This document shows, in pieces, positions 5,738-20,865 of a stretch of DNA of 64,000 nucleotides (positions are counted from its first letter, which is position 1; each line of letters starts with the position of its first letter). The notes under the pieces are model-generated. The model saw only the letters and a program-made list of their open reading frames with translations, had not been told where the DNA came from and made no database searches. Source of the stretch: Isosphaeraceae bacterium. Lineage in GTDB: Bacteria > Planctomycetota > Planctomycetia > Isosphaerales > Isosphaeraceae. Location: contig BPJS01000001.1 in the NCBI GenBank assembly GCA_026004735.1, positions 248,001 to 312,000 on the forward strand, in the 5' to 3' direction. Both the position numbers and the translations under genes were made by a program.

Positions 5738-8700
5738 ATGCGCCGCTCTCTGCCCAGGGCCTCCCGCAGGTCCCCGAAGCCGGTCCGCGCCCTCACCCCC
5801 CGCCGCCGTGCCGCCTCCCGCCTCATCGAGCCGCTCGAGCCGCGCCAACTCCTCTCCTACACCCTCCAAATCCTCCACGCCTCCGACCTCGAGGGCGGCG
5901 TCGATGCCATCGCACGCGCCGCCAACTTCGCCGCCATCGTCGACGCGCTCGAAGACTCCTACCCCAACTCCATCACCCTCTCGGCCGGCGACAACTACAT
6001 CCCCGGCCCGTTCTTCTCCGCCGCCGGCGATCCTACCCTCCGCGGCCCGCTCCGCTCCGTAACCGGCAACCCCCAGGCCCGCGAAGACGTCGGCCGCGTC
6101 GACGCCGCCATCATGAACGCCATCGGCTTCGACGCCTCCGCTCTGGGCAACCACGAATTCGACGCCGGACCCGCCACCGTCGCCACCATCATCGGACCCG
6201 ACATCCGCGACGCCAACGGCGACGGCACCCTCGACGACGCCCGCTGGCTCGGCACCCAGTTCCCCTACCTCAGCGCCAACCTCGACTTCTCCGCCGAACC
6301 GAGCCTCGCCCGCCTCGCCACCTCCGACCTCCTGCCCAACACCGCCTTCGTCTCTCCCCTGTCCGACCTCCCCGCTGCCGCCGCCGCCAAAAAAATCGCC
6401 CCCGCCACCCTGATCGAACGCGGTGGCCAGACCATCGGCGTCATCGGCGTCACCACCCCGCTGCTCGCCTCCATCTCCTCGCCCGGCAACGTCCGCGTCC
6501 AAAACCCAGGCGCCGGCACCAACGACATGGCCGCCCTCGCCACCATCCTCCAGCCCATCATCGACCAGGTCGCCCTCCACACCAACAAAATCATCCTCGT
6601 CTCCCACCTCCAGCAGTTCGCCCTCGAACAAGACCTCGCCCCGCGGCTCTCCAAGGTCGACATCATCCTCGCCGGCGGCTCCAGCACCCTCCTGGCCGAC
6701 CCCGAAGACGTCGCCCGCGGCCTCCAACCCGGCGACTCCCCCCACGGCTCCTACCCCTTCCTCACCACCAACGCCGACGGCGACCCCGTCGCCCTCGTCA
6801 GCGTCGGCGACGAATACCGCTACGTCGGCCGCCTCGTCGTCACCTTCGACTCAGCCGGCGTCATCGACCCAGCCAGCATCGACCCCAACGTCAGCGGCGC
6901 CTTCGCCTCCACCACCCAAACCGTCGCCGCCCTCTGGGGCACCGCCGACCCCTTCGCCCCCGGCTCCAAAGGCGACCTGGTCCGCACCCTCACCACCGCC
7001 GTCCAAAACGTCGTCACCGCCAAAGACTCGATCCGCTTCGGCCGCACCGGCGTCTACCTCAACGGCCTCCGACAGGACGTCCGGACCCAGGAAACCAACC
7101 TCGGCAACCTCACCGCCGACGCCAACCTCGCCGCCGCACGCTCCATCGACCCCACCGTCGTCGTCTCCCTCAAAAACGGCGGCGGCATCCGCGACTCCAT
7201 CGGCACCATCGCCGAAATCGCCCCCGGCCTCTACCAGCCTCTGCCGCCCCAGGCCAACCCCCTCTCCGGCAAGCAAACCGGCGAAATCTCCCAACTCGAC
7301 ATCGAAAACAGCCTCCGCTTCAACAACCAGCTCTCCCTCCTGACCCTCACCGCCGACGGCCTTCGCCAAATCCTCGAGCACGGCGTCGCCGCTACCCGCC
7401 CCGGCGCCACCCCCGGCCAGTTCCCCCAGGTCGGCGGGCTTGCCTTCAGCTTCGACCCCAGCCGGCCCCCCGGCTCCCGCGTCCGCTCCGCCGCCATCGT
7501 CGACGACCAGGGCCGAATCCTCGACACCCTCGTCCAGAACGGCCAGACCGTCGGCAACCCCAACCGGCCCATCCGCGTCGTCACTCTCAACTTCCTGGCC
7601 GCCGGCGGCGACTCCTACCCGTTCCCCTCCCTCGGCTCCAACCGCGTCGACCTCGGCATCGGCGAACAAACCGCCTTGGCCAACTTCCTCGCCGACCGCT
7701 TCCCTCTCGGCAGCCTCAACGCCTTCGCCCAACCCGATACCCCACCCGACGCCGACACCCGCATCCAAAACCTCGCCGTCCGCGCCGATACCGTCCTCGA
7801 TCGCCCCATCGAACTGGCCCACCTCGCCACCCGATCCCTCCCCAACGGCGCCGAGATCGTCGCCCACGACCCCCTCTCGCAACGCCTCTTCGTCATCGGC
7901 GGCGGCCGCTTCGTCGACGTCCTCACCTTCGCCAACCCCGCCGCGCCCCAACTCCTCTTCTCCCTCGACCTCGGCGCCAGCTTCGCCGGCAATAGCGTCG
8001 CGATCCACAACGGACTGGTCGCCGTCGCCGCCTCCAACGCCCTCGACCCCCAACTGCCCGGCGCCGTCTTCCTCTTCAACGCCGACGGTACCCTCCTCAA
8101 CCAGCTCGAAGTCGGCGCCGTCCCCGACATGCTCACCTTCACCCCCGACGGCACCACAATCCTCGTCGCCAACGAGGGCGAACCCCGCTCCGACTACTCC
8201 TTCGACCCCGAAGGCTCCGTCTCCATCATCCACCTCGCCGGCGGACCCCTCGCCGCCACCGTCTCCACCGCTCGCTTCGACGCCTTCATCGGCCGCGAAG
8301 CCGAACTCCGCGCCCAGGGCATCCGCATCTACGGCCCCGGCTCCAACGCCGCCCAAGACTTCGAACCCGAATACATCACCGTCACCCCCGACTCAGCCCG
8401 CGCCTTCGTCACCCTCCAGGAAAACAACGCCATCGCCGAACTCGACCTCTCCACCGGCCAGTTCACCCGCGTCCTCCCCCTCGGCACCAAAGACCACAAC
8501 GCCAACCGCTTCCTCCTCGACACCTTCGAGTTCTCCACCCTGCCCACCCTCGGCACCACCGCCGCCGGTCAGCCCGTCCCCCTCGGCGGCTTCTCCGGAC
8601 TGGCCTTCGAAGGCATCAACCCCGCCAACGGCCGCCTCAAGTTCCTCACCCACACCGACCGCGGACCCAACGGCGAAGCCATCGGCAACCTCCGACCCTT

Positions 8701-11700
8701 CCTCCTCCCCAACTTCACTCCCGAACTGATTCGCTTCGAACTCGACCCCGCCTCCCGCGCCCTCACCATCACCCAACGCATCCCCCTCAAACGCCAGGAC
8801 GGCTCCCCCCTGACCGGCCTGCCCAACACCGCCATCTCCGGCGGAACCGCCTCCACCCCCTACAACGACGAAGTCCCCATCGACCTCACCGGCAACACCC
8901 TCCCCCTCGACCCCCTCGGCGCCGACCTCGAAGGCATCGCCATCGACCCCGCCGACGGCTCCCTCTGGATGGTCGACGAATACCGACCCGCCATCTACCA
9001 CTTCGACCCCAACGGAACCCTCCTCAACCGCTACGTCCCCGCCGGCACCGCCTTCGCCGCCCGCCAGCCCGCCGGCTCCTTCGGCATCGAAGCCCTCCCC
9101 GCCGTCCTCGCCCAACGCCGCCAAAACCGCGGCTTCGAAGCCATCACCATCCACAACGGCAAAATCTACGCCTTCGTCCAAAGCCCCCTGCGCAACCCCG
9201 CCTCCCTGGCCAACTCCACCCTCAACGCGATGCGCAACATCCGCATCGTCGAACTCGACCCCACCACCCAGTCCACCCGACAGTTCCTCTACGTCATGGA
9301 CAACCCCAACCTCGGCGGCTCCACCAACACCCGCGCCGACAAAATCGGCGACGCCGCCGTCCTCCCCTCCGGCGAATTCCTCGTCATCGAACGCGATGAC
9401 GACACCATCCTCGACGACGACTTCGCCAAAGTCGAAAAGAAAATCTACCGCTTCCGACTCGACGGCGCCACCGACATCACCCCCTGGTCCAGCTTCATCG
9501 ACCCCGTCTCCGGCAAGTCCATCGACCAGATGACCCCCGCCGAACTCGCCGCCGCCGGCATCCAGCCCATCGCCAAATCCCTCCACGTCGACCTCAACGC
9601 CATCGGCTACAACCGCACCGAAAAGGTCGAAGGCCTCGCCGTCATCGACGCCCACACCCTCGCCGTCGTCAACGACAACGACTTCACCGTCGCCGGCATC
9701 ACCATCGACTTCACCACCGGACGCTTCACCCCTGACCCAGACCCCGAACCCACCCTCCTCGGCCTCATCCGCACCGCCTCCAACGCCCTCGACCCCAGCG
9801 ACCGCGACGGCCCGGCCAACTCCGGCCGCATCCAGATCGCACCCTGGCCCGTCGAAGGTCTCTACATGCCCGACGCCCTGGCCAGCTACCAGGTCGGCAA
9901 CCTCACCTACATCGTCACCGCCAACGAGGGCGACGCCCGCGAATACGACGCCCTCTCCGAAGAAGTCCGCGTCAACTCCCTCAACCTCGACCCCTCCCGA
10001 TTCCCCAACGCCGCCGCCCTCAAGGCCAACGCCGCCCTCGGCCGACTGACCGTCTCCAACGTCGACCTCGACCTCGACGGCGACGGCGACGCCGACCGCC
10101 TCCAACCCCTCGGCGCCCGCTCCTTCACCATCTGGGTACGCTCCGCCAACGGCTCCCTCACCCCCGTCTTCGACTCCGGCGACGACTTCGAGCAAATCAC
10201 CGCCCGCGCCGTCCCCACCCTCTTCAACTCCAACGGCACCCCCGCAACCTTCGACACCCGCAGCGACAACAAAGGACCCGAACCCGAAGGCATCGTCCTC
10301 GGCACCCTCAACGGCCGCACCTACGCCTTCATCGGCCTCGAACGCACCGGCGGCGTCATGGTCTACGACGTCTCCGACCCCTACGCTCCCACCTTCGTCC
10401 AGTACATCAACACCGCCGGCGACCTCGCCCCCGAAGGCCTCACCTTCATCCCCGCCTCCGACAGCCCCACCGGCGCACCCATCCTCCTCGTCACCAACGA
10501 GGTCAGCCGCACCCTCACCGCCTACGCCATCAACGCGCCGGGCGGCTTCCAGACCCTCCCCAACCTCGCCGGCTCCGAAGGCTCCCCCATCACCTTCACC
10601 GTCAGCGGATCCCCCGGCCTGACCTACTCCCTCGGTCCCGACGCTCCCCCTGACGCCTCCATCCACCCCACCACCGGCGCCTTCTCCTGGACCCCCTCAA
10701 ACGGCCCCGAAACCCAATCCCTCACCCTCTTCGCCACCGACGGCACCAACCTCTGGTGGCAAACCCTCACCGCCTCCATCACCAACGCCGCCCCCGTCTT
10801 CACCTCGATCTCCTCCCCAGCCACCACCATCGGCGGCGCTATCCAGGGCGCCCTCACCTCCATCTCCGCAACCTTCTTCGACCCCGGCACCCTCGACACC
10901 CACACCGCCACCGTCAACTGGGGCGACGGCACCATCACCACCGCCTCCCTCTCCGCCGGCTCCCTCTTCGCCTCCCACACCTACTCCGCCGGCGGCTCCT
11001 ACACCGCCACCATCACCCTGACCGACTCCGACGGCGCCTCCACCACCCAATCCCTAACCCTCTACATCACCGGCGCCAGCCTCCGCAACGGCACCCTCGA
11101 AGTCATCGGCACCACCGGCGACGACAACCTCCGCATCATCGAAGACACCCCCGCAACCGTCCGCGTCCGCCTCCCCGGCGCCTTCTCCACTCCCTTCCTC
11201 TCCTTCCCCAAGAGCCAGATCACCCGGATCATCGCCCGCCTCGGCGACGGCAACGACCTCGCCACCGTCGCCCGCCGCCTCACCACCCCGCTCTTGATCG
11301 ACGCCGGCGCCGGCCACGACGTCCTTACCGCCGGCGGCGGCCCAGCCATCCTCATCGGCGGCGACGGCAACGACTCCCTCCTGGCCAACAGCAGCCCCGC
11401 CGGCTCTCTCTTGATCGGCGGCGACGGCGCCGACTCCCTCCTCGGCAGCACCTCCAGCGACCTGCTCATCGCCGGCTCCACCGACTTCGACACCCACGAC
11501 GACGCCCTCTTCGCCATCCTCGAACACTGGAACGCTTCCGGTTCCCTCCACTTCCTCGACGAAAACACCAACGTCTACGACGACAACGCCATCGACCTCA
11601 TCCGCAGCCGCGCCGGCGCCGACCTGCTCTTCATCAACCCCGACACCGACCAGGTCGACGACCTCTCCGGACGCGACCGCATCCGCCCCACCCGCCGCCG

Positions 11701-11710
11701 CCGCCCCTGA
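5738..11710 (+). CDS. Giant exported metallophosphatase/5'-nucleotidase with phytase-like and choice-of-anchor I regions
   Basis: A 1990-residue multidomain protein. Residues 1-40 are Arg-rich and carry the planctomycete anchor-like motif EPLEPRQLLS. Residues 40-400 form a calcineurin-like phosphoesterase (HASDLEGG, LSAGDNY, GNHEFD), and about 430-640 the 5'-nucleotidase C-terminal domain (NLTADANL, SLKNGGGIRDS). From about 690 a choice-of-anchor-I propeller starts (VANEGEPRSDY). It is interrupted at about 945-1320 by an esterase-like phytase domain (FSGLAFEGI, HTDRGPNGE, VEGLAV) and resumes to about 1600 (VTANEGDAREYDALSEE, GPEPEGI). Then follow an Ig-like and a PKD domain (VNWGDGT, 1708-1767) and RTX-like GGDGNDSL repeats (1854-1912). 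The C-terminus is Arg-rich. Likely role: phosphate release from nucleotides or phytate outside the cell. A GAGG lies 12 bases before the ATG. Confidence 0.85.
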   Translation: MRRSLPRASRRSPKPVRALTPRRRAASRLIEPLEPRQLLSYTLQILHASDLEGGVDAIARAANFAAIVDALEDSYPNSITLSAGDNYIPGPFFSAAGDPTLRGPLRSVTGNPQAREDVGRVDAAIMNAIGFDASALGNHEFDAGPATVATIIGPDIRDANGDGTLDDARWLGTQFPYLSANLDFSAEPSLARLATSDLLPNTAFVSPLSDLPAAAAAKKIAPATLIERGGQTIGVIGVTTPLLASISSPGNVRVQNPGAGTNDMAALATILQPIIDQVALHTNKIILVSHLQQFALEQDLAPRLSKVDIILAGGSSTLLADPEDVARGLQPGDSPHGSYPFLTTNADGDPVALVSVGDEYRYVGRLVVTFDSAGVIDPASIDPNVSGAFASTTQTVAALWGTADPFAPGSKGDLVRTLTTAVQNVVTAKDSIRFGRTGVYLNGLRQDVRTQETNLGNLTADANLAAARSIDPTVVVSLKNGGGIRDSIGTIAEIAPGLYQPLPPQANPLSGKQTGEISQLDIENSLRFNNQLSLLTLTADGLRQILEHGVAATRPGATPGQFPQVGGLAFSFDPSRPPGSRVRSAAIVDDQGRILDTLVQNGQTVGNPNRPIRVVTLNFLAAGGDSYPFPSLGSNRVDLGIGEQTALANFLADRFPLGSLNAFAQPDTPPDADTRIQNLAVRADTVLDRPIELAHLATRSLPNGAEIVAHDPLSQRLFVIGGGRFVDVLTFANPAAPQLLFSLDLGASFAGNSVAIHNGLVAVAASNALDPQLPGAVFLFNADGTLLNQLEVGAVPDMLTFTPDGTTILVANEGEPRSDYSFDPEGSVSIIHLAGGPLAATVSTARFDAFIGREAELRAQGIRIYGPGSNAAQDFEPEYITVTPDSARAFVTLQENNAIAELDLSTGQFTRVLPLGTKDHNANRFLLDTFEFSTLPTLGTTAAGQPVPLGGFSGLAFEGINPANGRLKFLTHTDRGPNGEAIGNLRPFLLPNFTPELIRFELDPASRALTITQRIPLKRQDGSPLTGLPNTAISGGTASTPYNDEVPIDLTGNTLPLDPLGADLEGIAIDPADGSLWMVDEYRPAIYHFDPNGTLLNRYVPAGTAFAARQPAGSFGIEALPAVLAQRRQNRGFEAITIHNGKIYAFVQSPLRNPASLANSTLNAMRNIRIVELDPTTQSTRQFLYVMDNPNLGGSTNTRADKIGDAAVLPSGEFLVIERDDDTILDDDFAKVEKKIYRFRLDGATDITPWSSFIDPVSGKSIDQMTPAELAAAGIQPIAKSLHVDLNAIGYNRTEKVEGLAVIDAHTLAVVNDNDFTVAGITIDFTTGRFTPDPDPEPTLLGLIRTASNALDPSDRDGPANSGRIQIAPWPVEGLYMPDALASYQVGNLTYIVTANEGDAREYDALSEEVRVNSLNLDPSRFPNAAALKANAALGRLTVSNVDLDLDGDGDADRLQPLGARSFTIWVRSANGSLTPVFDSGDDFEQITARAVPTLFNSNGTPATFDTRSDNKGPEPEGIVLGTLNGRTYAFIGLERTGGVMVYDVSDPYAPTFVQYINTAGDLAPEGLTFIPASDSPTGAPILLVTNEVSRTLTAYAINAPGGFQTLPNLAGSEGSPITFTVSGSPGLTYSLGPDAPPDASIHPTTGAFSWTPSNGPETQSLTLFATDGTNLWWQTLTASITNAAPVFTSISSPATTIGGAIQGALTSISATFFDPGTLDTHTATVNWGDGTITTASLSAGSLFASHTYSAGGSYTATITLTDSDGASTTQSLTLYITGASLRNGTLEVIGTTGDDNLRIIEDTPATVRVRLPGAFSTPFLSFPKSQITRIIARLGDGNDLATVARRLTTPLLIDAGAGHDVLTAGGGPAILIGGDGNDSLLANSSPAGSLLIGGDGADSLLGSTSSDLLIAGSTDFDTHDDALFAILEHWNASGSLHFLDENTNVYDDNAIDLIRSRAGADLLFINPDTDQVDDLSGRDRIRPTRRRRP

Positions 11711-15029: not shown

Positions 15030-15153
15030 CAGACTCATGCGGGACTCTCACGTCGTTTCCTCACTCCTCGTCCCATCCCATCACGCATGCGCACACTCCC
15101 GCCCCCGCCCACCCCGGGCCTGCGGCACCCGTCCGTTATGGAGGGTCCTTCAC

Positions 15154-17181
15154 ATGTTCACGCCCTCACACCCTGAACCCCACCGCCGCCCCCTCGTCCG
15201 CCGCCCCCAGACCGAACCCCTCGAACCCCGCCACCTGCTCGTCTCCTTCCTCACCATCCCCGGCTCCGGCTCCCTCCAATACCTGGCCCTGGCCGACGAC
15301 ACCTCCTTCCAGATCCTCCGCTCCGGCGACCTCCACGGACCGATCTTCGCCGGCGAACACTCCCCCGGCGACGCCGGCCTCTTCGTCCGCCCCCAACGCC
15401 CCGACGGCTCCCCCGGCCCCGTCGTCGGCATCGACGTCGTCGGTCGCCGCGCCCTCGGCTGGCGCACCACCGCCGCCGCCACCACCGCCGCTCCCTGGTT
15501 CCCCATCCTCCACCGCCTCGACCCCGACGGCCTCGGCGCCCTGCTCATCGCCGACAACCGCAACGACGCCAACACCGACGGCCTCGTCTACCTCCTCGTC
15601 CATCACGTCCGCTACGCCCCAGGCACCGACGCCTTCCGCGTCGACGCCACCCTCATCAACCTCGCCGACTCCCCCCTCACCCTCGACGCCTTCGCCGCCG
15701 CCGACCTCTACCTCGACGACCGCAACCCCGCCAACGACTTCAACCCCATCAACGACGACTTCGGCTTCGGCTGGCACGACCCCACCACCGGCGCCATCGG
15801 CGGCACCGACTTCCTCGGTACCTCCCACTTCGCCGTCGCACCCAACCCCGAGACCCTCGTCCAACCCACCCACTTCCAAGCCGGTCACTACGCCACCATC
15901 TGGCGCACCATCGCCTCCGGCAACTCCCTGTCCAACTCCGTCCTCACCCCCACCCTCACCCCCCCCTCCCTCGACGACCCCAACCTCGTCAACAACGCCG
16001 CCGCCCTCCAGTGGGCCAACCAGACCATCCCCCCCGGCGGCTCCCTCCTCCTCTCCTACTCCTGGTCCTTCTCCTCACCGGCCACCAGTCCCCCCGCGAC
16101 TCCCCCGTCCCTGACCACCTTCCCCATCCAAGCCACCGCCGGCTCCCCCCTCCACGCCCCCATCGCCCGCATCGAGCCATCGACTCTCCCCACCACCCCC
16201 GCCGACTACCTCGCCACCATCTCCTGGGGCGACGGCTCCCCACCCACCCTCGCCTCCATCGTCCCCGACCCCAACGGACCCGGCTTCCTCGTCACCGCCC
16301 CCCACACCTATTCCAGGCCCGGCCTCTTCCCCGTCACCATCACCCTCATCGGCCCCGAAGCCGCCACCTCCTCGGTTCGCACCACCGCCACCATCGCCAA
16401 CCCCATCTCCAACCCGCCGCCACCACCCCCCACCCCAGGCTCCCTGACCATCTCCGGCCAGCTCGACCCCAACTCCGACCTCGGTCCCTCCAACTCCGAC
16501 GCCATCACCAGCAACCCCTCGCCCCGCTTCCTCGGCCACGCCACCCCCAACGCCTCCATCACCCTCCAAGCCACCCACCTGGCCAGCTCCTTCTCCGCCT
16601 CCTTCTCCACCACCGCCACCGCCGACGGCTCCTGGTCCCTCCAAATCCCCTCCCCTCTGCCCGACGGCCCCTACACGATCATCGCCAAGGCCCAACTCAA
16701 CCAACTCTCCACCCAGACCACCCTCCTCGACCCCACCAAACCCCTCGTCATCGACACCCAAGGCCCACGCATCTCCTCCCTCAGCGTCAACCGCCGCACC
16801 GGCCGCCTCGTCATCTCCTTCGACGACCCCGGCTCCACCCTCGACACCTCCTCCCTCTCCCTCCCCAATACCTTCCAACTCTCCCGCCGCATCCGCCGCA
16901 TCCACCGCCCCATCCCCCTCCGACTCGCCCAATCCTCACCCTCCCGGGTCATCCTCGCCACCCGCCCCTTCCCGCTTGGCGCCTCCTACACCTTCATGAT
17001 CCTCCCCACCATCCACGACCTCGCCGGCAACCCCCTCGACGGCGCCTTCAACGGCCGCTTCCCCTCCGGCTCCGGCCAGCCCGGCTCCCCCTTCATCGCC
17101 TCCCTCCAAGCCAACCGCGCCAACCTCCTCGCCGTCCGTCCCTCCTCCCCCTTCCAACCCCTCCGCCCCCGCCGCCGCTAA
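15154..17181 (+). CDS. Exported LEPRxLL-motif protein with PKD and Ig-like domains
   Basis: A 675-residue surface protein. Residues 1-30 are basic and contain TEPLEPRHLLVSF, the same motif as in the giant gene at 5738. Residues 40-320 form a domain rich in Asp and Asn, with EDDRNPANDFN-like segments, that I do not recognise. A PKD-like domain follows (TISWGDGSPP), then a proline hinge ([10 protein letters not shown]) and a bacterial Ig-like domain (NSDAITSNPSPRFLG to LVIDTQGPRI). The last part looks like a second Ig-like fold (VISFDDPGSTLD, GASYTFMI). The tail is FQPLRPRRR. The start was set at 15154 because GGAGGG lies eight bases before it. No enzymatic motif was seen. Confidence 0.75.
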   Translation: MFTPSHPEPHRRPLVRRPQTEPLEPRHLLVSFLTIPGSGSLQYLALADDTSFQILRSGDLHGPIFAGEHSPGDAGLFVRPQRPDGSPGPVVGIDVVGRRALGWRTTAAATTAAPWFPILHRLDPDGLGALLIADNRNDANTDGLVYLLVHHVRYAPGTDAFRVDATLINLADSPLTLDAFAAADLYLDDRNPANDFNPINDDFGFGWHDPTTGAIGGTDFLGTSHFAVAPNPETLVQPTHFQAGHYATIWRTIASGNSLSNSVLTPTLTPPSLDDPNLVNNAAALQWANQTIPPGGSLLLSYSWSFSSPATSPPATPPSLTTFPIQATAGSPLHAPIARIEPSTLPTTPADYLATISWGDGSPPTLASIVPDPNGPGFLVTAPHTYSRPGLFPVTITLIGPEAATSSVRTTATIANPISNPPPPPPTPGSLTISGQLDPNSDLGPSNSDAITSNPSPRFLGHATPNASITLQATHLASSFSASFSTTATADGSWSLQIPSPLPDGPYTIIAKAQLNQLSTQTTLLDPTKPLVIDTQGPRISSLSVNRRTGRLVISFDDPGSTLDTSSLSLPNTFQLSRRIRRIHRPIPLRLAQSSPSRVILATRPFPLGASYTFMILPTIHDLAGNPLDGAFNGRFPSGSGQPGSPFIASLQANRANLLAVRPSSPFQPLRPRRR

Positions 17182-17392
17182 GCTCTCGGGTCAACATCCC
17201 TCAACCCTTCGGCAGCCCCCGTCGCCGATACGATCGCCCGCTTCCCCGCAACCCCTCTTGCGGCCCGTGTTGCTTCTTTGCAACATGCTGCTGCCTCCAC
17301 GCATCATTCCGTTCGGACTCCATCCTCGCAACGTAAGATGCATGGCGGCGTTGAACGTCTCGCGTCGCTTGTAACGGAGTCCAAGGACGCTC

Positions 17393-17938
17393 ATGGGTCT
17401 ACTTCCTCTGCAACGGGGTCTACGTCACTACTCCCTCCACGGCGAGTTGCCCAACACCCCTTTCTGGAACCGCCTCGAAGCCCGCCGCGACCTCAACCCC
17501 ACGCCCTTCGAACGCAACCACCCCGCCCTCGCCGGGCTGTTCGAAAAGGCCGAAGTCCCCGGCCTCATGCCCGATACCCCCTACTGGAACAACCTCCGCC
17601 AACGCTACGAGATCAACCCGGCTCGCTTCAAACACTACCACCCCTTCCTCGGCCGTCTCATCGAACGCGACGATCGGGTCCGCGACTCCCTCCAAAACCC
17701 CCCCTCTCCACCACCTCCCCCCATCACCCCGCCACCACCAGTCATCCAACCCCCAGCCGGCGGCGGCAGTTCGGGCGGATCGGTCAACCCACCCGGCGGC
17801 GGCGGCGGCAGCACCATCATCCCCGAACCCTCCAGCGCCCTGCTCTTCGCCATCGGCCTGCTCGGCTGCGCTCTGCTCGCCGGTCGCCGCCGTAAAGCCC
17901 TCAACCGCCAGATCCCCAGCCCCACCCCCACCCCCTGA
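17393..17938 (+). CDS. PEP-CTERM protein with duplicated TPxWN motif and no signal peptide
   Basis: A 181-residue protein. The C-terminus is a clear PEP-CTERM sorting signal: IIPEPSSALLFAIG, a hydrophobic helix, then AGRRRKA. Before it is a Pro/Gly linker. The N-terminal half holds two copies of a motif of about 36 residues, LPNTPFWNRLEAR...NPTPF...HPALAGLFE and MPDTPYWNNLRQR...NPARF...HPFLGRLIE. No hydrophobic signal sequence precedes them. An in-frame TAA at 17372-17374 excludes a longer N-terminus, and AAGGA stands five bases before the ATG. PEP-CTERM proteins are normally exported and sorted by exosortase, so the missing signal is odd. The repeat was not recognised. Confidence 0.7.
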   Translation: MGLLPLQRGLRHYSLHGELPNTPFWNRLEARRDLNPTPFERNHPALAGLFEKAEVPGLMPDTPYWNNLRQRYEINPARFKHYHPFLGRLIERDDRVRDSLQNPPSPPPPPITPPPPVIQPPAGGGSSGGSVNPPGGGGGSTIIPEPSSALLFAIGLLGCALLAGRRRKALNRQIPSPTPTP

Positions 17939-18282: not shown

Positions 18283-19708
18283 ATGAACCGCCGCCGCTTC
18301 CTCGCTGCCCACGCCGCCGCCCTCCTGCCTGGCTCTCTCCTCCGCCGCCAGCAGCCCGGCCCCCGCGTCGGCTTTGCCTCTCCCGCGGAGGCAATGAAGG
18401 CCCCCCGCGAAACCCGCCTCTTCACCGTCTGCCTCCCCTCCGGCCCCAGCGCCGACTCCCGCCCCGACTACTTGGCCGTCATCGACGCCGACCCCGCCTC
18501 GCCCACCTACTCGAGCGTCACCCGCCGCGTCCCCATGCCCTCTCCCGGCGACGAACTCCATCACTTCGGCTGGAATCTCTGCTCCTCCTGCCACTCCGAC
18601 CTCGCCGCCGAGGCCGTTCGCCGCTACCTCATCCTCCCCGGCCTCAAATCCTCCAACATCCACATCCTCGACGCCGCCGACCCCAACGCACCCCGCCTCC
18701 TCAAAACCATCCCCGGCGCCGAGATCAAGAAGTCGCTCAACCTCTCCGCACCCCACACCGTCCACTGCCTGCCCGACGGCCACATCCTGATCTCCATGCT
18801 CGGCGACGCCCACGGCAACGCACCCGGCGGCTTCCTCCTGCTCGACCCCGCCTTCCAAATCGCCGGCCGCTGGGAACGCGACTCCGCCGGCATGACCTAC
18901 AACTACGACTTCTGGTACCAGCCCCGCCACAACGTCCTGGTCTCCTCCGAGTGGGCCGCTCCCAACACCTTCTGGACCGGCTTCAACCCCAACGACGTCG
19001 CCGCCGGCAAATACGGCTCCCGCCTGCACTTCTGGGACTGGTCCGACCGCCGCATCGCCCAGTCGATCGACCTCGGCGACAAGGGCCTCATCCCCCTCGA
19101 GGTCCGCTTCGCACACGACCCCGACAAACCCCACGGCTTCGTCGGCGCAGCCCTCTCCAGCGTCATCTGGCACTTCTACAAGCACGGCGACGCCTGGAAG
19201 GCCGAACCGGTCCACACCGTCGAACCCCTCACTCCCCCCTCCGGCGGCGACCCCATCCCCGGCCTCATCACCGACATCGTCCTCTCCATGGACGACCGCT
19301 TCCTCTACCTCTCCAACTGGCTCCACGGCGACATCCGCCAGCTCGACGTCTCCGACCCGTCGAACCCCCGCCTCGCCGGCCAACTCTGGGTCGGCGGACT
19401 GCTCGGCAAGGCCCCCAAGGATGACAAGTTCCCCCTCCGCGGCGGACCCCAGATGCTCCAGCTCTCCCTCGACGGCAAACGCCTCTACGTCACCAACTCC
19501 CTCCTCAGCCGCTGGGACGACCAGTTTTACCCCGACCTCGCCACCCAGGGCTCCCACCTCATCCAAATCGACTGCAACACCGAGTCCGGCGGCCTGACGC
19601 TCAACAAGGCTTTCTTCGTCGACTTCGGCGCCGAGCCGTCCGGCCCAGCCCGCGCCCACGAGATCCGTTACCCCCGGCGGCGACTGCACCTCCGACATCT
19701 TCACCTGA
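18283..19708 (+). pseudogene. Methanethiol oxidase / selenium-binding protein (SBP56), frameshift near the end
   Basis: About 474 residues of the SBP56 family, whose bacterial members oxidise methanethiol to formaldehyde, H2S and H2O2. Visible marks are the metal/selenium-site GWNLCSSCHSD, SAPHTVHCLPDG, YNYDFWYQP, SSEWAAPNTFW, LSMDDRFLYLSNWLHGD and DFGAEPSGPARAHEIRYP. After RYP the family ends with GGDCTSDI-type residues. Here the C-run at 19671-19675 has one base too many; removing one C gives GGDCTSDIFT and a stop at 19708. Left as written, the frame runs on to 19887 in nonsense sequence. The N-terminus (MNRRRFLAAHAAALLPG) looks like a twin-arginine-type signal. Sequencing error is more likely than true decay because only the last ten residues are affected. 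Confidence 0.85.
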
Positions 19709-19826
19709 GCCTCTCGCCCGCGCCGCGTCAAAACGCCCCAGAGACCAACCCCCCTCGCCGCTCGGCAGCGTCTCCCACAGCCAGGCGGCCTCCCGCGCTC
19801 CGAGCAGGCTGGGGTCCTTCCCCCGT

Positions 19827-20372
19827 TCAGGCGATGATCGCGTGGAACATCCGTCCGCAGACGCAGCGGTGCTCGCCAAAGGGCTGACACTCGACGCAAT
19901 GGCCGCCGATCTCGCACCCAGGATGAGGCAGGCCACAACCCAGCGTGGCCGCGCCGAGGCTCATCAAAGTCGGCGGCTTCGAGCCTGCCGCCTCCGCCTG
20001 AACACCTCCCCGAGCCGCCAACCCCGCTGCTCCCGCCCCAGTTCGCGCCCCAGCCCCCGTCCGCCGCGCTCTCGACGCCGCCTCACCTCCCGCCGCCCGC
20101 GCTCTGGATGCCGCCCCGGGCCCCGCCGCCCGCCTCGGAGTCGCCGCCCCAGCTCCTGACGCCTTGCCACCCGGACTCCGTGAACCGGCCTTCGCCGCGC
20201 TCGACGGCTTCGCGGCCGGCTTCGGCGACGCGGCCTTGCGGGGACTGGCGGTTGGCTTCGCCGCCGACCGCGGCGCTCCCGACGCCTTACGGCTCGCGGG
20301 CTTCGATGGCGCCGGCTTCTTCGGAACCGGCTTGGCGGCGGGCTTACGCGTCGGCTTCTTCTTCTTGGCCAT
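19827..20372 (-). CDS. Histone-H1-like basic protein with C-terminal Cys/His cluster
   Basis: A 181-residue protein. Residues 1-130 are Lys/Arg/Ala/Pro/Ser-rich low-complexity sequence (MAKKKKPTRKPAAKPVPKK), like the H1-like proteins that compact DNA in Planctomycetes and Chlamydiae. The last 40 residues are different: they hold six cysteines spaced C-x6-C-x5-C-x2-C-x7-C-x-C and three histidines (GCGLPHPGC, HCVECQPF, HRCVCGRMFH), suggesting metal binding, probably zinc. The open frame extends upstream to 20495, but MAKKKK at 20372 matches the start of the neighbouring H1-like protein. It lies 103 bases after that gene on the same strand. A DNA-binding or nucleoid role is inferred from composition only. 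Confidence 0.75.
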   Translation of the reverse strand: MAKKKKPTRKPAAKPVPKKPAPSKPASRKASGAPRSAAKPTASPRKAASPKPAAKPSSAAKAGSRSPGGKASGAGAATPRRAAGPGAASRARAAGGEAASRARRTGAGARTGAGAAGLAARGGVQAEAAGSKPPTLMSLGAATLGCGLPHPGCEIGGHCVECQPFGEHRCVCGRMFHAIIA

Positions 20373-20475: not shown

Positions 20476-20865
20476 TCAAAACGTGGTGGAGCCACCCAGG
20501 TCGGACACCGATGTCCCGGTCGTTCCCAGCCCCTCGCTGCTCGCGCCCATATCAGGCGGCGACCACGGCGACGGCGGCGGCGTGGCCACCGGCGGCACAG
20601 GGCGACCCACCGAACGGCGGACAGCCTTCTTCGCTGCCGCCTTCTTCGGCGCCGCCTTCTTCACCGCCGCCTTCTTCGCCACCACCTTCTTCGTAACGGC
20701 CTTCTTTGCCGCCGCCTTCTTCGGCGCCGCCTTCTTCACCGCCGTCTTCTTGGGCGCGGCCTTCTTGGGTACCGCTTTCTTCGGAACAGCTTTCTTCACG
20801 GCCGTTTTCTTGGGCGCAGCCTTCTTGGGGACGGCCTTTTTGACGGCTGTCTTCTTCTTGGCCAT
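20476..20865 (-). CDS. Histone-H1-like Lys/Ala/Pro repeat protein
   Basis: A 129-residue protein. About 80 residues consist of imperfect five-residue units of the type KKAAP and KKTAV, starting [15 protein letters not shown]. They are followed by an acidic-neutral tail ([15 protein letters not shown]). It is the composition of bacterial H1/Hc1-type nucleoid proteins, which bind DNA through lysines without a folded core. The underlying DNA is itself repetitive (GCCGCCTTCTT units between about 20630 and 20850). A GAGGA stands about ten bases before the ATG. Its paralogue with a Cys cluster follows on the same strand, and gyrA lies upstream; all three act on DNA topology or packaging. Confidence 0.8.

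Follow-up and report, generated by a model that had tools for sequence, protein, structure and literature searches.

A conserved branch of Isosphaeraceae PEP-CTERM repeat proteins without an N-terminal signal peptide

Exosortase substrates of the PEP-CTERM type (TIGR02595, PF07589) end in a PEP motif, a hydrophobic helix and a basic cluster, and usually begin with an N-terminal signal peptide. In the consulted sections of Haft 2006 (PMC1569441), a signal peptide was assigned to 97% of PEP-CTERM proteins after re-analysis of start sites, a figure that therefore already allows for 3% without one. The consulted part of PMC3237569 uses the word 'always' and blames errors in gene models or sequencing for almost every GlyGly-CTERM case that lacks a signal peptide. 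No signal-less PEP-CTERM proteins were evident in the titles and abstract openings found by a literature search. A different layout is that of the bacterial tail-anchored proteins (DjlC, Flk and the synthetic NG-WALP), which, in the consulted sections of PMC6794478, carry their sole membrane segment at the extreme C-terminus, have no signal peptide and insert N-in/C-out. The Isosphaeraceae protein described here, P0001, has a PEP-CTERM tail in a genome that encodes exosortases but, unlike the usual substrates, it belongs to a conserved branch without a signal peptide. It resembles tail-anchored proteins in its lone C-terminal segment but differs in having PEP before the helix and basic residues after it. 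Further close parallels are signal-bearing Isosphaeraceae paralogues such as L002, which combine an LNPxRFDxYHP-type repeat with a PEP-CTERM tail; however, these open with an ordinary signal peptide, whereas P0001 opens directly with a predicted folded domain.

The P0001 gene lies at 17393-17938 on the forward strand of the window, the term used here for the whole 64,000-nucleotide stretch analyzed, and encodes 181 amino acids, as assigned from the open reading frame, PEP-CTERM profile matches and relatives in 10 other genomes. All features given below are on the same strand unless marked otherwise. A likely ribosome-binding site, AAGGA (17383-17387), is located 5 nt 5' of the ATG at 17393, and an in-frame TAA (17372-17374) seven codons before this ATG bars an upstream extension, as the initial annotation had pointed out. 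The third-position GC content was slightly higher within the gene than just upstream (0.68-0.90 versus 0.65-0.68, 120-base windows), which lends weak backing to the assigned start. P0001 opens with the hydrophilic segment MGLLPLQRGLRHYSLHG, which is followed by two repeat units of 33 residues each, a Pro/Gly-rich linker (residues 101-142, 17693-17818) modeled with low confidence (pLDDT <50 at residues 118-146), IPEPSSALLFAIGLLGCALLAGRRRK, and a short tail. The sorting signal consists of a Pro-Glu-Pro motif (residues 144-146, 17822-17830), a hydrophobic helix (residues 148-164, 17834-17884; KD15 2.60) and the basic cluster RRRK (residues 165-168, 17885-17896). Its initial designation as a PEP-CTERM signal is borne out by scores above the cut-offs of both Pfam PF07589 (24.9 bits, cut-off 20.7) and NCBIfam TIGR02595 (22 bits, cut-off 16), and three PF09721 exosortase matches above cut-off were found in the same genome.

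Within the window, the gene is situated downstream of a gene for a Big_13 (Ig-like) protein and upstream of an SBP56 selenium-binding protein gene (18283-19887, 619.9 bits), the frame of which becomes Arg/Pro-rich near its end beside a run of C and looks, by eye, frameshifted there, either truly or through an assembly error. An operon or conserved partner was considered for the signal-less gene and rejected, as neighbors differ between the genera compared, and none conserved between genera was found among them. Only the genus coded g14 shares a neighbor of this kind, a small ORF 3' of the gene in five of its six genomes (L092, L094, L095, L096, L097); the one scanned, that of L095, matched helix-hairpin-helix and is presumably ComEA-like, and the ORF that follows is one we take to be uvrB-like. 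Elsewhere in the window, a Lys/Ala-rich repeat protein (20476-20865, reverse strand) resembles the histone H1-like HC2 at 37 bits, below the Pfam cut-off of 40, and adjoins a second Lys/Pro-rich ORF. The large Big_13 protein (15037-17181) and another large protein with 5'-nucleotidase C-terminal, phytase-like and choice-of-anchor I domains (5738-11710) both carry EPLEPR..LL near a basic N-terminus that, by eye, has no classical signal peptide.

The two units of P0001 (17447-17545, beginning LPNTPFWN, and 17567-17665, beginning MPDTPYWN) match at 15 of their 33 residues and at 68 of the 99 bases. Their BLOSUM62 self-score is 92, and none of 300 shuffles of residues 1-101 scored above 31. The duplication reported initially was thus reproduced, but its description as a TPxWN motif has to be widened: the two copies are units of a wider helical repeat, the conserved part of which is R...LNPxRFDxxHP (R..LNPxRFDxYHP), and TPxWN is a local form of it. 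The core repeat profile A5 matched in 39 of the 45 Isosphaeraceae genomes used for all family searches; on P0001 it gave 70.6 bits for unit 2, which is among its 24 training rows, and 45.4 bits for unit 1, which is not. A draw of 397 genomes from the class contained 39 with the repeat and a draw of 392 from the phylum contained two, all of them Isosphaeraceae among the matches listed; in both draws, no more than 18 candidates per genome were scored. The closest named carriers of the signal-less gene are Singulisphaera acidiphila DSM 18658 and Singulisphaera sp. GP187, and the family is therefore Isosphaeraceae; the link to Phycisphaerae suggested at first did not hold. In the samples searched, and among the matches listed, this unnamed repeat thus appears confined to Isosphaeraceae. 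Searches of 19 whole members against Pfam and NCBIfam returned only PEP-CTERM tail models and stray weak matches at E 0.1, and a sequence search of the PDB with the repeat protein gave no match at E 10. A single repeat was also seen toward the C-terminal end of an open frame of 2017 residues in strain GP187 (L143; G009:C5, match 5301947-5302042), which contains an EALEPRELL stretch, presumably LEPR-XLL, and no PEP-CTERM sorting helix.

Structure prediction for the whole of P0001 was poor (mean pLDDT 66.8, pTM 0.46). An AlphaFold model of the core (residues 1-101, three sequences) reached a mean pLDDT of 89.2 and a pTM of 0.75, the five models ranging from 89.2 to 59.1. The predicted core is entirely helical, with an N-terminal helix (residues 7-16, 17411-17440) followed by two units of helix, short helix and helix; mean pLDDT is 78 at residues 1-10 and 92 at residues 11-20. 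Because the model places this first helix in the helical domain, the N-terminus appears to belong to a folded domain and not to be the remains of a signal peptide. Foldseek found no match in the PDB at E 0.001 with either model. VIA-align of the whole model yielded only Cdc5 (6jui; Z 2.2, rmsd 2.8, 43 residues) among 28 chains, and the core model gave nothing at Z 2 among just three chains compared, which does not imply a new fold.

Of 59 genomes searched, that of the window among them, 30 had matches at E 0.01, in many cases through the tail alone. Signal-less members were present in 11 genomes: that of the window, two of Singulisphaera, six of g14, G004 and G020. They are spread over five of the 21 genus codes sampled in the family and occur in all examined genomes of g14 (6/6) and Singulisphaera (2/2). 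The least certain member is the divergent one of G020, which is missed by a core-only profile and scores 48.4 bits with profile A2, in which the tail is included. With a profile built from the 11 proteins, these training members scored at least 71.8 bits and the next proteins at most 51.2. A single origin of the branch was not rejected in a weak test on 44 columns (p-AU 0.314). For five close pairs, dN/dS of the core was 0.29, 0.17, 0.25, 0.32 and 0.32 (Nei-Gojobori, JC). At the level of sequence, these comparisons show P0001 to be a member of a conserved signal-less branch of the Isosphaeraceae PEP-CTERM repeat family, and the repeat domain of this branch to be under purifying selection.

The first 60 residues of P0001 reach a hydropathy peak of only 0.79 (Kyte-Doolittle, 11-residue window), in agreement with the hydrophilic N-terminus noted initially. 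Over the same length, the 11 signal-less genes range from 0.04 to 1.86, the top value being a stretch in G004 with acidic residues after it. The initial annotation had named a signal peptide upstream in another frame of relatives, a sign of a base-calling error, as the result that would overturn its reading; the 330 nt upstream of the 11 genes were searched in three frames, by hydropathy and visual reading, and yielded no plausible signal peptide that continued into the gene. The window, G009 and G064 have a stop in frame 7-12 codons before the gene. In G013, a weakly hydrophobic stretch (1.69) begins at an ATG located in frame some 70 codons before the gene, but inspection by eye did not show it in the other genomes of the genus. 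Proteins begin with MG in 10 of the 11 genes and with MA in G020, and the relative in the separate assembly of Singulisphaera acidiphila (NC_019892.1) starts alike. Comparison with the relatives thus confirms that the predicted absence of a signal peptide from P0001 is real; the combination of a PEP-CTERM tail without a signal peptide looks real since it is kept in several genera.

Among the PEP-CTERM proteins examined, this absence is rare. Forty loci were examined in three genomes, comprising 10 of 10 TIGR02595 matches in the genome of the window, 10 of 10 in S. acidiphila and 20 of 26 in G036, where no locus was obtained for the remaining six. At a hydropathy threshold of 1.9, 36 had a signal-like N-terminus, and two more (L100, L178) were accepted by eye. 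This left P0001 and L155 of G036, a count that is too low for signal-less genes because the signal-less relatives of G026 and G036 are absent from the list. L155 (G036:C1:2906115-2906186) is a second PEP-CTERM open frame with neither an evident signal peptide nor an evident repeat, and it may be a broken, misread or incompletely read gene. Within the repeat family, 41 repeat-plus-PEP proteins were picked by one pattern (44 rows minus three spurious ones), and 33 of them had a signal-like N-terminus (1.87-3.28) and eight did not (0.33-1.86), a numerically narrow gap, so that the assignment also uses sequence context. The signal-less genes of G028, G063 and G020 were missed by this pattern and are covered by the upstream-frame analysis.

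The tail of the branch has a marked charge polarity. In all 10 in-frame tails, no Lys or Arg is found in the 20 residues before PEP, and three to ten occur from PEP+20 onward. This pattern matches, and favors, an N-out/C-in helix. The tail helix had a median hydropathy of 2.545 (n = 10) versus 2.05 in 38 signal-bearing PEP-CTERM proteins (Mann-Whitney p = 0.0007; n = 6 and p = 0.024 when five g14 tails were merged to one), and it was also higher than in 33 signal-bearing repeat paralogues (median 2.0; p = 0.0002, g14-collapsed p = 0.008), the helix windows differing slightly between sets because either PEP or the HMM match served as their starting point. The helices of G026 (1.97) and G004 (2.07) are unremarkable, and the G004 tail gave no NCBIfam match at E 0.1. 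A more hydrophobic tail helix in the signal-less branch, on the whole, is suggested by these values, because windows were cut slightly differently, lineages are non-independent and the sample is small.

Our preferred reading is that P0001 is exported without any cleavable signal and that the unusual hydrophobicity of its tail helix drives this export. Of the two options left by the initial annotation, another export route or a motif acting before the membrane, charge polarity likewise favors the former. The C-terminal helix would be the only membrane-targeting element of P0001. After translation, the protein would insert so that its basic end stays cytosolic and the repeat domain lies outside, where PEP would be recognized by exosortase just as it is in other substrates. 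The part ahead of PEP, roughly 120-170 residues, would cross unassisted, by YidC-type N-tail translocation, or carried by a partner. ProW of E. coli is a precedent for translocation of a long N-tail without a signal peptide. The N-out/C-in orientation is preferred because of the positive-inside polarity, the retention of PEP and the signal peptides of most paralogues. We put the probability of post-translational insertion of the branch in this manner at roughly 45%. That Isosphaeraceae possess a signal-peptide-independent entry to exosortase, in which the PEP-CTERM helix by itself would target, orient and present the protein while the helical domain, within roughly 120-170 residues before PEP, crosses N-first after translation, is a proposal we consider doubtful as yet.

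The main rival to N-out export is an inverted tail anchor, in which the helix would insert N-in/C-out, leaving the repeat domain cytosolic at the membrane, for example touching exosortase or partners, and PEP unprocessed. A single C-terminal helix without a signal peptide is the tail-anchored layout, and the part from PEP+20 onward is short, 8-18 residues in nine of the 10 in-frame tails. The consulted sections of PMC6794478 further report that the E. coli tail-anchored proteins studied go N-in/C-out and that moderate helix hydropathy suffices; as PEP would then end up on the incorrect side of the membrane, this speaks against the export proposal. However, the basic residues after the helix and their absence before PEP oppose a C-out orientation, retention of PEP would then have no clear reason, and the repeat stands behind signal peptides in most paralogues (33 of 41). 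An inverted anchor is a real possibility, one we take seriously without preferring it. Alternatively, the signal peptide may have disappeared from the branch, leaving the tail to decay as a remnant on a soluble or non-functional protein. The tail of the G028 gene (L093, from 6322) does lie downstream in another reading frame, and dN/dS of the tails is uneven (0.12-1.03 over 30-38 codons, too short for judgement). Yet the branch persists across several genera with its core under purifying selection, PEP-helix-basic tails are in frame in 10 of 11 genes, and the helix is on the whole more, not less, hydrophobic, which makes decay improbable. Export as a passenger of a signal-bearing partner, perhaps a repeat paralogue like L002 (G000:C1:1254659-1255159), is distinctly improbable: such a paralogue is present in the genome of the window and was seen by eye in nine of the 10 other carriers, but 39 of 45 family genomes have repeat proteins regardless, so that co-occurrence says little, the core profile found no paralogue in G020, and no neighbor shared between genera was found. 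Finally, a sequencing or gene-model error concealing a signal peptide is very improbable and already largely refuted, for although the apparent frameshift in SBP56 makes indel errors conceivable in this assembly, ten other Isosphaeraceae genomes, among them separately assembled ones, have a relative with a hydrophilic start, and a plausible signal peptide was found in no frame of the 330 nt upstream, so that a frameshift artefact is unlikely.

The signal peptide has been treated as the constant companion of the PEP-CTERM tail, with exceptions usually blamed on gene-model errors, and the conserved signal-less branch of Isosphaeraceae breaks this rule. It would offer a natural substrate for asking what the C-terminal sorting helix does alone, and it may point either to another membrane route for exosortase substrates or to a use of PEP-CTERM helices on the cytosolic side.
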